Origin: [Synechococcus] sp. NIES-970
GTDB lineage: Bacteria > Cyanobacteriota > Cyanobacteriia > Cyanobacteriales > MRBY01
DNA length: 64,000 bases
Direction of reading: 5' to 3'
Assembly: GCA_002356215.1 (NCBI GenBank)
Contig: AP017959.1
Location: forward strand, 1,488,001-1,552,000
Part shown: piece by piece, positions 2,528-6,805 of the stretch
Position numbering within the stretch: position 1 is the stretch's first letter
How the letters are laid out: every line of letters begins with the position of its first letter
The notes under the pieces: model-generated
The model's database searches: none
Told to the model about the DNA's origin: nothing
The model's input: the letters and a program-made list of their open reading frames with translations, nothing else
Translations under genes and position numbers: made by a program

Positions 2528-2700
2528 AGATCGAAACTCTCTGTTGCGGGTTACTGTTGCAAAGAAGCTCACAGATTCCAATTTTTCTGGATTTCTCTTG
2601 TTGGTAAGGAAGTCAGGGGAGTTTGATAGCGAGACTTACTCTTTAATAGCTAGCTGAGAATCATTTGATTTAGCGCCACCTGATTTTCTCAAAAATAGCA

Positions 2701-2745
2701 AAAGCCAAAAGATTTCTGTATGACAGAAATCTTTTGGCTTTTTTT
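2701..2745. terminator. Bidirectional intrinsic terminator between leuA and the LOV-GGDEF gene
   Basis: A perfect 19-base stem (2701-2719 with 2723-2741, core GCCAAAAGATTTCTGT) has an ATG loop and runs into a T tract. The complementary A tract on the left gives a T tract on the other strand. It sits between convergent leuA and the gene ending at 2760, so it probably stops both transcripts. Confidence 0.9.
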
Positions 2746-2759
2746 ATACTTCCTGTTAA

Positions 2760-5117
2760 TCAGCTTTCGAGTACCTGGGGCAACTCAAAAATTTCTGACC
2801 GGGCACGTCCTTTTGCCTTAGCGCGGTACATGGCAAGATCTGCATCTCGGAGAATCTCCGTTGCGCTCAAGTAGGTTTTGAGGTCAGCGACAATGCCGAT
2901 ACTGACTTGGACATAGATATCTTCTTCCCCCAGTTTAATGGGAGTTTCTAGGGCTTTATGGATACGTTGGGCAACTTGGAAAGCACTTTGGGTTTCGGCG
3001 ATATCTTTCAGGAGAACGACAAATTCGTCCCCTCCCAGACGCGCTAGGGTATCTGTTTCTCGGAAGCAGGGGCAAATGCGCTTGGCAAATTCTCGGAGAA
3101 GTTGATCACCCACAAGGTGGCCCAGACGATCATTAATCGCTTTGAAATAGTCTAGATCGAGAAACAAGAGGGCATTGCGATGGTGGGGGTAGCGGTGCTG
3201 TTGTTTGAGCACTTGTTCGAGGCGTTCTTCGAGGAGAGTGCGATTCGGTAAGCCTGTGAGGTGATCATAGAAGGCTTCTTGGACGAGGCGTTGTTCGATT
3301 TGTTTGCGATCGCTAATATCGACCATCTGCCGGATCACATGCAGGGGATTCCCCTCGGCATCCCGTACGAGAGCCACTTGGACAAGGGCATGGACTTCGT
3401 GACCATCCTGGGCGATGTAACGTTTTTCGCGATGAAATTCTTGGCGATCGCCCTGGCGTAATGCTGCGTTGAGGCGTTGTTCTTCCGGAAGGTCATCGGG
3501 ATGGGTTAGGTCTTCACAAGTTTTTTGGAGAAGGGCATCTTGCTCATAGCCGATGATATTACACCAGGCTTGGTTGACCTGTTCATAGCGGCCATCAAGG
3601 TTAGTGATTGCCATACCAATGGGGGCGAGGTAAAAAACTTGGCGGAATTGCTCTTCTGTTTTTTGGAGGTTGGCAGCGGCGGCTTTTTCTTGACTCACGT
3701 CGGTTTGAATGCCGATAAAGTGGGTCAAGTAGCCCCCTTGATCACGTACCGGAAAAACATGGAGCGCGTTCCAAAAAGGTTCGCCAGTTTTGCGGTAGTT
3801 GCGGAGGGTAACGCTACAATCTTGACCTTTGAGGATCGCCGCCCGCAGTTGCGTGAGGGGAGGCTGCTGGCGATCATTGCCCTGGAGGAAGTTGCAGTTA
3901 CGCCCAATAATCTCAGTGGCTGAGTAGCCAGTAATGGTCTCAAAACCTCGGTTTACATAGATCACAGGATTATCTTCAGCTTGGGCATCGGTAATTACGA
4001 CGCCTTGACGGATGGCATTAATGGAGTGGTGGAGGAGATTCATTTCTGCCGCTTGAGATTCTCGCTCAATGCTGCTGGAGAGGACATTGGCGATCGCCTG
4101 GAGAAAATAGAGTTCATCTCCACTAAAATCACGCTCTTCTGTGCTGTAGACGGCCAGCACTCCCCAGGGCTGATCCGGTGGGCCGATAATGATACTCACG
4201 CCGCTGACGACATGGTAGTTGTGGAGTAATGTTTCCCCTCGAAAGCGCGTTTCAAGGCGCAAGTCTGTAATACTCACCGAGCTTTTTTGCTCAAGGGTAT
4301 AACCCACATGACTATTGGGGCCAGTATGCACTGTCACCGCACCAATGAGATCCGCAGGCCAACCAAAACCCGCTGCGAGAATGCAAAGGGGGGTTTTTTC
4401 TTGTTTGGCATAAATGCAGCTGTAGGGCACTTCGAGGGTACGGGCGACAAAAATTGCGGCCTGTCGCAGGAGCTTTGGGAAATCAGAATTGTTGAGACTA
4501 ATGCCCCCTAGTTTGGCGATCGCCGACTGTTGACGCACCTGTTGCCGTAGTTGTTGTTCTGTCAAAAACTGCTCACTCTCATCGAGAATAAACATCAGCA
4601 CCTGGTTGGGGGCGATGAAAACATATTCGGCCCGGAGATATAGATTCAGACGGGGAAACTGGAGCCGCTGACTCGTTGAAATAGATCCTTTGAGGCAATT
4701 GTTGAGGTGATAGTAGAGGGTCGGCAACGCAGAAAACACTTTCCGGGGTTGCTGACCAAGACTCAAAGACGGTTGCTGGAGTGCCTGACTGTTGAAGCGA
4801 GCCGCCGCTGGGTTAAAGTCCAAGAGGTGCAGTTCTTCCTCCACGGCTTGCCAACGGTAACAGGGAATCGGGAGAGAAAAATATTCCTGGTATTGCTGGC
4901 TGTACTGTTGATCGTACTGCTCCTTGACCTGATGATATTGTTGTAGGGCTTCACGGTATTGCCGCGCAATTTGCTCCTTGTCTGCCTCTAAGGTGGCGAT
5001 CGCCGCTGCTTGCTTTTCTAATAGGGCGATCGCCTGGGCATAGCCGTCCAGCAACCAAGCGACACCGCCCGCCGTCATCGGTAATTGCCCCTTGAGATTT
5101 GGCACTTTATTCGCCAT
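2760..5117 (-). CDS. LOV-PAS-GGDEF diguanylate cyclase, probable blue-light sensor
   Basis: This 785-residue cytoplasmic protein should make cyclic di-GMP in response to light. The order is: N-terminal glutamine-rich coiled coil (about 25-80), a PAS-like segment (80-185), a GAF domain (about 205-350), a LOV-type PAS domain (about 362-478), a second PAS (483-605) and a GGDEF domain (615-780). The LOV domain carries GRNCNFLQG with the adduct-forming Cys408, and also NYRK (Asn440), FWN (Asn450) and GIQTDV (Gln471), the residues that hold FMN in phototropin LOV domains. The cyclase has an intact GGDEF at 695-699 and an upstream RETD (686-689) in the position of the RxxD inhibitory site, so product feedback is likely. 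There is no EAL domain and no membrane segment. It is divergent from a receiver-histidine kinase gene. The GAF domain shows no obvious bilin-binding cysteine. Light control is inferred from the residues. Confidence 0.85.
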   Translation of the reverse strand: MANKVPNLKGQLPMTAGGVAWLLDGYAQAIALLEKQAAAIATLEADKEQIARQYREALQQYHQVKEQYDQQYSQQYQEYFSLPIPCYRWQAVEEELHLLDFNPAAARFNSQALQQPSLSLGQQPRKVFSALPTLYYHLNNCLKGSISTSQRLQFPRLNLYLRAEYVFIAPNQVLMFILDESEQFLTEQQLRQQVRQQSAIAKLGGISLNNSDFPKLLRQAAIFVARTLEVPYSCIYAKQEKTPLCILAAGFGWPADLIGAVTVHTGPNSHVGYTLEQKSSVSITDLRLETRFRGETLLHNYHVVSGVSIIIGPPDQPWGVLAVYSTEERDFSGDELYFLQAIANVLSSSIERESQAAEMNLLHHSINAIRQGVVITDAQAEDNPVIYVNRGFETITGYSATEIIGRNCNFLQGNDRQQPPLTQLRAAILKGQDCSVTLRNYRKTGEPFWNALHVFPVRDQGGYLTHFIGIQTDVSQEKAAAANLQKTEEQFRQVFYLAPIGMAITNLDGRYEQVNQAWCNIIGYEQDALLQKTCEDLTHPDDLPEEQRLNAALRQGDRQEFHREKRYIAQDGHEVHALVQVALVRDAEGNPLHVIRQMVDISDRKQIEQRLVQEAFYDHLTGLPNRTLLEERLEQVLKQQHRYPHHRNALLFLDLDYFKAINDRLGHLVGDQLLREFAKRICPCFRETDTLARLGGDEFVVLLKDIAETQSAFQVAQRIHKALETPIKLGEEDIYVQVSIGIVADLKTYLSATEILRDADLAMYRAKAKGRARSEIFELPQVLES

Positions 5118-5698
5118 ACAATTCCCTTTTCTCGTGCAATGCGCTTAAAACTTGTGTCACAAAACTTGCCTTGAGCCTTTTTCCATGGCATTCATTTCAG
5201 ACGACGAAGACCTGTCACGTCATAGATGGCCTAAGAATTAATCTGTAACAAAACTTTGCGTAATAGCTTACTTAATTGATTTAAAAAATTTACTATCAAT
5301 TTTTCAAAGATTCAGCTTTCTATTTTAGCAAATTTTCTTTGATTTTCTAAGATAGGCCATGCAAAGGGAAACTCACATACCAATCATATCTTCTATTCCT
5401 GAGGGAAATATCAAGCGAAAAAGTGAATTTTAAGCATCAAAAAATATGCTTTTTTAGGAAAAATTACTTAGTCAAAATTCAAAAATTATTCTCGCTACTA
5501 GATATTTGACCTCGCCCATTTTTGCTAACTCCATCAAGACCCTGGGGGAAATGACTGACTCCGGTATAATGGGATCAAATAACTAGGTTACTTAATTTTT
5601 AATTTTTACGATTAGATTACTCTTTAGAAGTCAATCAAGCTATTAATAAGAGTTTTTTCTGAAAGTAGCATCAAAAAATAGCAGCCCCATGATCAACA
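5118..5698. other. AT-rich divergent intergenic region between two signalling genes
   Basis: This 581-base spacer has no HIP1 site and is unusually AT-rich in 5250-5500. It separates the divergent LOV-GGDEF and receiver-kinase genes and so must hold both promoters. A perfect TATAAT lies at 5565-5570 on the plus strand. I see no small gene and no convincing hairpin. Confidence 0.5.
5565..5570 (+). promoter_or_regulatory. Candidate -10 box for the receiver-histidine kinase gene
   Basis: A perfect TATAAT lies 128 bases before the start codon. No good TTGACA occurs at the matching -35 distance, so the promoter may need an activator or be only partly consensus. The implied 5' untranslated region is about 120 bases. 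Confidence 0.45.
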
Positions 5699-6805
5699 AT
5701 GCTGTCATTTGATAACCGTGATCGCGTTCTTGTGGTTGATGATTCTCCCGATAATCTCCTGTTAATTCAGAGTATTTTAGAGGATGAAGATCTCGACCTT
5801 GTGACCGTCAGCAATGGGAATGAAGCCCTGGATTTGATGGCTCGGCAACCCTTTCATTTAGTGTTGTTGGATGTAATGATGCCGCAAATTGACGGCTTTG
5901 AAATGACCAGACGCATCCGCAAAGATCCCAATCTTCCTTACATCCCGATTTTGTTAATTACAGCCCATGCCCAGCCCAGTGTCGCCCTTGGGTTAGATAT
6001 TGGCGCCGATGATTTTATCCGTAAGCCCGTAGAGATTGATGAGCTGATTGCGCGGGTGCGATCGCTGTTGCGATTCAAGCATACGGTAGATGAAAAAAAT
6101 ATGATTGTCCGCCAGCGGGAAGATTTTGCCTCCCGGTTGACCCATGATATGCGTACTCCATTAATTGCTGCCGACCGGATGCTGAACTTGATGTTGCAGG
6201 GGGCCCTGGGAGAGCTATCAGCGCCGATGGTGGAAGTGTTGCGTACCATGTCCCGCAGTAATGCGAACTTGTTGGAGATGGTGAACAACATTTTGGAGGT
6301 TTATCGCTACGAGTCGGAACGAAAAACGTTTTATTTCAGCCGCATTGATCTCACAACGATCATCGGCAATGTGTTGGCGGAGCTGCGGCCCCTTGCCGAG
6401 GAAAAGCAACTGCAACTCTGGGGAAAGCTACCCCCAGAGTCGGTTTGGATCGAGGGCGATCGCCTAGCGATTCATCGGGTGTTGGTGAATTTAGTCAGTA
6501 ACGCGATCAAATTCACCGAACAGGGGGAAATAATCATTACCTTGACGCAATTAGAAACGCAGCAGGTACAAATTCAAGTGAGCGATACGGGCATTGGCAT
6601 TAGTCCCGAAGACCAAGGGGAAGTCTTTGAGCGGTTCCGCCCGGGCAAACATTACAACGGCGGCAGCGGCCTGGGCCTGCATTTATCAAAACTGATCGTC
6701 GAAGCTCACCAAGGGCAAATCACCCTAGAATCTCACCCCCAGCAGGGCAGTACCTTTGCGATCGCCTTGCCTCTCTCCCAAAGTACGGAAAAAAAAGTTG
6801 TATGA
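5699..6805 (+). CDS. Hybrid response regulator receiver-histidine kinase
   Basis: The 368-residue protein starts with a receiver domain: acidic pair Asp14-Asp15, phosphoacceptor Asp58 in LLDVMMP, conserved Thr88 and Lys109. A histidine kinase follows: dimerisation helix with His149 in LTHDMRTPL, N box near NLVSNAIKF, G1 box DTGIGIS and G2 box GSGLGLHLSK. It has no membrane segment and no sensor domain, so its input is probably phosphotransfer to the N-terminal receiver from another kinase. Such REC-HK proteins are common in cyanobacteria. It is transcribed away from the LOV diguanylate cyclase. The ATG at 5699 has no clear Shine-Dalgarno sequence, and a seven-codon reading frame overlaps it from an ATG at 5689. 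The gene ends 50 bases before leuC. Its partner proteins and target are unknown. Confidence 0.9.
   Translation: MLSFDNRDRVLVVDDSPDNLLLIQSILEDEDLDLVTVSNGNEALDLMARQPFHLVLLDVMMPQIDGFEMTRRIRKDPNLPYIPILLITAHAQPSVALGLDIGADDFIRKPVEIDELIARVRSLLRFKHTVDEKNMIVRQREDFASRLTHDMRTPLIAADRMLNLMLQGALGELSAPMVEVLRTMSRSNANLLEMVNNILEVYRYESERKTFYFSRIDLTTIIGNVLAELRPLAEEKQLQLWGKLPPESVWIEGDRLAIHRVLVNLVSNAIKFTEQGEIIITLTQLETQQVQIQVSDTGIGISPEDQGEVFERFRPGKHYNGGSGLGLHLSKLIVEAHQGQITLESHPQQGSTFAIALPLSQSTEKKVV

Follow-up and report, generated by a model that had tools for sequence, protein, structure and literature searches.

A putative LOV-controlled diguanylate cyclase in [Synechococcus] sp. NIES-970 and the apparent loss of its EAL domain

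Organization of the locus and of the encoded protein

The window analyzed here is a 64,000-nucleotide stretch of contig AP017959.1 from the 3.12 Mb genome of [Synechococcus] sp. NIES-970. It includes a gene for a multidomain protein, the LOV gene, that lies convergently with leuA and is accompanied by the features listed below (window coordinates).

2528..2759, no strand assigned: site of the lost EAL domain, 232 bp between the LOV gene and leuA
2700-2742, both strands: palindromic terminator, probably two-way and shared with leuA, scored on both strands
2760..5117, minus: whole gene for a GAF-LOV-PAS-GGDEF protein of 785 aa (open reading frame and Pfam; matched in 6/6 genus genomes)
2802..3275, minus: predicted GGDEF diguanylate cyclase domain, residues 615-772 (Pfam, motif residues)
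3021-3035, minus: GGDEF motif, residues 695-699
3051-3062, minus: I-site RETD, residues 686-689
3258..3320, minus: PAS-to-GGDEF helical linker of 21 residues (600-620), with the Asp of DIS as its first residue and the Leu of DHLT as its last
3318..3653, minus: second PAS domain, residues 489-600 (Pfam; model confident)
3684..4034, minus: LOV domain, residues 362-478 (Pfam, NCBIfam, PDB sequence and fold searches)
3891..3893, minus: Asn409 at Cys+1, the position of an FMN-phosphate Arg in most LOV domains (LOV alignment)
3894..3896, minus: Cys408, predicted flavin-adduct cysteine (6/6 genus sequences, 55/60 sampled LOV domains)
4068..4475, minus: GAF domain, residues 215-350 (Pfam)
4533..4880, minus: conserved region, residues 80-195 (aligned in 5 genomes; without Pfam match)
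4875..5072, minus: N-terminal long helix, likely a coiled coil, residues 16-81 (AlphaFold2 model)
5124..5130, minus: AAAAGGG, Shine-Dalgarno-like, read off the sequence directly 5' of the ATG

The open reading frame that an earlier sequence-only reading had placed at 2760-5117 was borne out and lies on the minus strand, which that reading left unstated. A plus-strand frame or chance artefact was ruled out, as stops interrupt the plus strand of the interval, and the dN/dS ratios of a pair of closely related orthologues, at 0.06-0.11 in all five regions compared, also argue that the finding is not due to chance. The terminator palindrome, which comprises 20 pairs, is situated between the convergent leuA and LOV genes.

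The protein is assembled, in order, from a long helix, the conserved region at residues 80-195, and GAF, LOV, PAS and GGDEF domains. Pfam matches were obtained for GAF (residues 215-350, 2e-11), PAS_9 (372-476, 1e-38), PAS (489-600, 1e-22) and GGDEF (615-772, 1e-49), and an EAL domain was absent from the 785 residues. The same parts had been described from the letters of the sequence: a GAF domain, a second PAS domain that joins LOV to GGDEF, an intact GGDEF domain with an RxxD inhibitory site and no EAL domain. A script check located Cys408 in GRNCNFLQG, Gln412, Asn440, Asn450, Gln471, RETD (686-689) and GGDEF (695-699) at the positions given in that description, with DHLT at 618-621. The proposed N-terminal coiled coil agrees with the AlphaFold2 model, in which residues 16-81 form a helix whose blocks from 21 to 70 have pLDDT values of 73-79. 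The model is confident for the LOV, PAS and GGDEF domains, but not for residues 76-186 and much of the GAF domain (mean pLDDT 66). The exit helix of the LOV domain (475-497) enters the second PAS domain, and a helix at 602-616 joins the latter to GGDEF. A Foldseek search ranked DosP first, followed by LadC (8c05), the PAS-GGDEF-EAL protein PA0861 and a Brucella LOV-PAS structure. The possibility that residues 80-195 form a further PAS domain was rejected: there was no Pfam match, PAS and LOV alignment profiles were unmatched, and the model is not confident there.

Bilin-binding GAF domains are recognized by a Cys-His motif. No histidine follows the cysteines of the GAF domain in this protein, and the bilin-binding motif is therefore missing. 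As a separate observation, the sequence GGCGATCGCC occurs in the coding region at about 4991-5011 of the window and contains the palindrome GCGATCGC, presumably HIP1, which is frequent in cyanobacterial genomes.

Conservation of the gene and its neighborhood

An orthologue was found in all six genomes of the genus that were searched. The nearest named relative found was Picosynechococcus sp. PCC 7117 (G003), with 77% identity across residues 1-780. The order leuA, LOV gene, REC/histidine kinase gene, leuC, fbaA and smpB is common to the window, G002, PCC 7117 and G005. The REC/kinase gene and leuC also adjoin the orthologue in G001, where leuA, fbaA and smpB were not found within 19 kb around it; the G004 orthologue sits at a contig end and was outside the synteny comparison. 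A plasmid location was rejected in a search that returned a single record, an EAL-annotated Shewanella protein covering 52% of the query, and that may leave out records from the genome of the window itself.

Selection was assessed principally between G002 and PCC 7117; comparisons of the window with other genomes are near synonymous saturation, and a saturated line for the EAL region was excluded. For this pair dN/dS was 0.081 overall, with 0.102 for residues 1-195, 0.070 for GAF, 0.058 for LOV, 0.113 for the second PAS and 0.071 for GGDEF, the LOV value being the lowest of the five regions. The regional order differs in other pairs, where synonymous sites are near saturation; the LOV ratio of 0.148 between G001 and G004 was the highest of the finite values at near-saturated sites. 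When 21 motif positions were compared between the window and four orthologues only Gln412 varied (Arg in G001), and the GGDEF and I-site residues checked were identical.

Two features of the surroundings are recorded here. The divergent neighbor of the LOV gene (window 5699-6805, plus strand) encodes a receiver fused ahead of a histidine kinase, and this gene adjoins the LOV gene in G000, G001, G002, G003 and G005. The G005 orthologue comprises two frames (L093 and L094) broken between GAF and LOV, and a degenerate EAL piece lies between its GGDEF and leuA, preceded by a stop and a stretch of N; the split reflects either an assembly fault or loss in one lineage.

The LOV domain and the departure at Asn409

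The predicted assignment of residues 362-478 as a LOV domain is solid. A profile search had been proposed from the sequence as a means of ranking this segment as LOV, and the PAS_9 match did so. The NCBIfam YtvA blue-light family aligned with residues 361-494 (E 1e-48) at 166 bits, short of the whole-protein cut-off of 250. The best 60 of 162 PDB sequence matches of the region were LOV, phototropin, aureochrome or sensory-box/kinase entries, headed by 9vf7, a Meiothermus LOV structure which superposes on the modelled LOV domain at 1.1-1.3 Å across 133-135 columns. The adduct cysteine is found in the GxNCxFLQ context, Gln412 occupies Cys+4, and Asn440, Asn450 and Gln471 are present.

A 2015 paper attributes two conserved phosphate-contacting arginines to all LOV proteins and describes for DsLOV, whose cysteine is C72, contacts of the FMN phosphate with R73 and R89, that is, Cys+1 and Cys+17 (PMC4335406). 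The second of these corresponds to Arg425 in the protein studied here, whereas Cys+1 is Asn409. The description of the domain as a full LOV in the sequence-only reading consequently stands for the adduct cysteine and the flavin-contacting Asn and Gln residues, but not for the arginine at Cys+1.

The prevalence of this substitution was gauged in cyanobacteria, where LOV matches at E up to 1e-24 were detected in 173 of 291 genomes. Sixty LOV frames were chosen among the matches listed (about 150) to represent a spread of genera and frame lengths rather than drawn at random, and a contig end truncates one of them. The Cys+1 residue was Arg in 56, Lys in two, and Asn and Leu in one each, the single Asn being that of L181 from the sister-group genome G062. 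Within the genus five of six LOV domains have Asn and the sixth has Lys, and the LOV domain of G106 likewise is without Arg. As arginine is usual at this position but not universal, Asn409 alone was not taken to exclude a LOV domain. Cys408, both Asn residues, the active-site Gln and Arg425 are conserved in all six genus sequences; the replacement of Gln412 in G001 is the exception among the flavin-contacting Asn and Gln residues. Judged from sequence, the loss of one phosphate arginine may render FMN affinity and the photocycle unusual, and Asn409 could weaken FMN binding. In the 60-frame sample the adduct cysteine itself was replaced in five frames, by Ser (4) or Gly (1), namely in L171, L183, L184, L187 and L189, all of which are in proteins matching a histidine kinase query.

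Loss of the EAL domain

The EAL-less proteins of the window, G002 and PCC 7117 are cut at the GGDEF-EAL junction, no more than a few residues past GGDEF. In the other three of six genus orthologues (G001, G004 and G005) an EAL domain is present whose motif residues are gone; in G001 and G004 it forms the continuation of the LOV protein. Sixty-four EAL columns were scored, each at least 95% conserved among 20 other EAL domains; the interrupted EAL of L191 in the census was left out of this alignment and eight further EAL domains were included, several of which belong to PAS and not to LOV proteins. The conserved residue was changed in 27 columns in G001, 31 in G004 and 28 in G005, the last figure including four columns outside the piece used. 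In the EAL motif, Glu is replaced by Ala in G001 and G004 and by Thr in G005; the motif Lys by Asn, Val and Ile, respectively; and a later Glu pair by Gln/Gln in G001 and G004 and by Arg/Gln in G005. Glu 129, Glu 132 and Gln 236 are conserved in all three. The residues lost presumably are catalytic.

A remnant behind the gene was sought as an alternative to complete removal, but at E up to 10 no EAL trace was detected in the 232 bp of the window, in the 208 bp gap to leuA in PCC 7117, or in the 210 bp behind the G002 gene. In a tree of LOV plus GGDEF sequences from 25 proteins (L108 was dropped beforehand; supports were taken from the Newick line) the six genus members grouped together with support of 100, and within them the three EAL-less proteins (100) stood apart from the three with degenerate EAL domains (100). 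Proteins of G012 and G062, which retain the EAL motif, adjoin the genus with support of 98.

Synteny, the degenerate EAL domains of G001, G004 and G005, the tree and the lack of a remnant thus bear jointly on the history of the domain. On this comparative evidence the missing EAL domain is a secondary loss. The simplest history is that an ancestor with LOV-PAS-GGDEF-EAL organization lost its EAL motif residues towards the genus, and that one branch then dropped the domain altogether. A two-enzyme receptor would thereby have turned into a predicted cyclase-only protein. GGDEF-EAL proteins hold two opposing domains and the settling of a lineage on one of them rarely is visible; here, the genus and its sister group display three stages of a LOV-PAS-GGDEF protein, with an EAL domain, with a degenerate EAL domain and with none. 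What is new is that the opposing enzyme can be seen to have been lost in steps; LOV-GGDEF cyclases already are known in LadC. A loss opposite to that of the window protein was noted in L218 (G158), which is 1256 aa long and of LOV-GGDEF-EAL type: its EAL domain aligns well, but a GGDEF motif was not detected.

Comparison with other LOV and c-di-GMP proteins

Thirty-eight of the 60 sampled LOV frames match the histidine kinase query, 13 contain GGDEF and nine have neither (three of the nine with a receiver). All 13 GGDEF proteins also possess EAL. A second search of 388 genomes yielded 20 LOV-PAS-GGDEF-matching proteins that were chosen for coverage from LOV to GGDEF, and EAL again was present in 20/20. 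A strong LOV-like match (93-112 bits) was evident in 11 of these 20, and seven of these 11 LOV domains showed the Cys motif in a pattern check. Hence, EAL accompanied GGDEF in all 33 other cyanobacterial proteins examined, 24 of which have a strong LOV match, so that within this sample no other LOV-GGDEF protein is without EAL. Open-licence literature provided no work on the gene or on an EAL-less LOV cyclase of cyanobacteria.

LOV-GGDEF cyclases are known as LadC, with about 15-fold activation by blue light reported for short-linker proteins (21 residues) and >10,000-fold in long-linker proteins (35 residues) (PMC10396304). The window protein resembles LadC (MsLadC, SfLadC, AoLadC and DpLadC; PDB 8c05) in its LOV input, GGDEF output and lack of EAL, and the short class in its 21-residue helical linker ahead of DxLT; 8c05 also is the best PDB sequence match of its LOV-PAS-GGDEF part. 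It differs in the PAS domain between LOV and GGDEF, in the GAF domain and long helix in front, and in its cyanobacterial origin and its descent from a protein with EAL. Assignment to LadC in the strict sense was rejected on two selection features: the motif Gx(N/D)C(R/H)(F/I)L(Q/A) has R or H where GRNCNFLQ has N, and the layout in which a single linker of 21 or 35 residues connects LOV directly to GGDEF is interrupted here by PAS 489-600 (PMC10396304).

In cyanobacteria, a blue-light phosphodiesterase of LOV-GGDEF-EAL type, SL2 of S. elongatus, had been described (Cao 2010), according to later accounts (PMC8846402, PMC13001216, PMC5812497). A LOV route to c-di-GMP in this phylum, which the sequence-only reading had regarded as less explored, consequently is not new as such. 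SL2 and the window protein both join a cyanobacterial LOV domain to c-di-GMP enzymes. However, SL2 retains a C-terminal EAL and degrades c-di-GMP in blue light, whereas the window protein has only the cyclase domain and the EAL is degenerate in G001, G004 and G005. The unusual feature therefore is the EAL loss, which leaves the opposite enzyme, a predicted cyclase. Cyanobacteriochrome cyclases (the Cph2 C-terminal module and SesA) similarly link blue light to c-di-GMP in cyanobacteria, but are bilin-binding GAF sensors, and the GAF domain of the window protein is without the Cys-His pair. A PAS domain of the Anabaena kinase CdgK (All2875) reportedly binds FMN, and as it acts upstream of a cyclase a LOV-like route through two proteins has been suggested there (PMC9927289).

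Potential light control of the cyclase

The protein probably senses blue light through its LOV domain and thereby controls the diguanylate cyclase that it carries. Blue light would form an adduct between Cys408 and FMN, and the change would be relayed along the exit helix of LOV (475-497), across the second PAS domain and down the linker helix of 21 residues to a dimer of GGDEF domains, the cyclase activity of which would be altered. The I-site would limit output, and the GAF domain and N-terminal part may furnish extra input or dimer contacts. Flavin binding, photocycle, activity, sign and targets all are inferred from sequence in this scheme. Of the interpretation drawn from the letters of the sequence, the LOV, GGDEF and I-site, GAF and helix assignments and the absence of EAL hold by sequence; the LOV domain is not a full one, and a LOV route in cyanobacteria is already on record.

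The sign of the effect is less certain. Provided that light control exists, activation of the cyclase is somewhat favored by analogy with the four tested LadC proteins, and repression is possible. The PAS domain between LOV and GGDEF, a difference from LadC, implies that their coupling is not direct, and as the linker follows PAS and not LOV the comparison with LadC linkers is an analogy. In a study of Mesorhizobium, a LOV-GGDEF fragment of a LOV-GGDEF-EAL protein was repressed by blue light, the reporter output falling from 145 units in the dark to 30 under illumination (PMC9098866); the sign therefore is not readable from sequence. A tentative proposal is that output was reversed in this lineage: a blue-light receptor type that retains EAL in other cyanobacteria would here have passed through a stage with a dead EAL to a cyclase-only form, such that blue light now would raise c-di-GMP where formerly it lowered it. 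As the intermediate still exists in the genus, each step of such a reversal could be followed in an extant protein.

The opposite outcome is contained in the preferred reading as one of its cases, so that the confidences in the two overlap: the protein would be light-regulated, but blue light would switch the cyclase off, and EAL loss would have kept the direction, namely a lower c-di-GMP level under blue light. This outcome is suggested by the Mesorhizobium fragment and by the reduction of c-di-GMP by SL2 in blue light, but activation by blue light of 4/4 LadC proteins tested (PMC10396304) and a linker with the length of the LadC short class weigh on the other side, which leaves it rather doubtful. 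It is unlikely that the LOV domain is not a working light switch, through poor FMN binding via Asn409 or a structural or redox role, with the GAF domain, second PAS domain or N-terminal region setting the cyclase. The Asn where 56 of 60 sampled LOV domains have Arg, the pair of phosphate arginines said to be general in the 2015 paper (PMC4335406), the further candidate input regions and the fact that LOV dN/dS is not lowest in every pair are consistent with such a role; these are countered by retention of Cys408, both Asn residues, the active-site Gln and Arg425 throughout the genus, by the LOV ratio of 0.058 between G002 and PCC 7117, and by the lack of the Cys+1 Arg in four of 60 other LOV domains and in G106. 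That the gene is decaying after EAL loss and has no enzymatic role, as the stepwise EAL loss and the split G005 copy might imply, is highly improbable given the open frame, ribosome-binding-like site, terminator, conserved location, overall dN/dS of about 0.08 and intact GGDEF motif residues.

Cellular context

A single good LOV match was obtained in the genome of the window (2e-62, against 4e-6 for the second best), along with 13 GGDEF matches and 11 EAL matches. The ComFB family comprises c-di-GMP receptors in cyanobacteria, and two ComFB domains are present. In Thermosynechococcus, light acts through SesA, SesB and SesC to alter c-di-GMP and to switch on a PilZ cellulose synthase, whereas the PCC 7002 enzyme is listed as without PilZ, both according to the same review (PMC12430437); a link between the LOV gene and cellulose accordingly is only a suggestion. 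The window genome encodes one PilZ domain, within a cellulose-synthase-like glycosyltransferase, and this sole PilZ domain together with the single good LOV match makes a simple place in which to seek an effect. Picosynechococcus strains, the relatives of the window organism, are easily grown and transformed.
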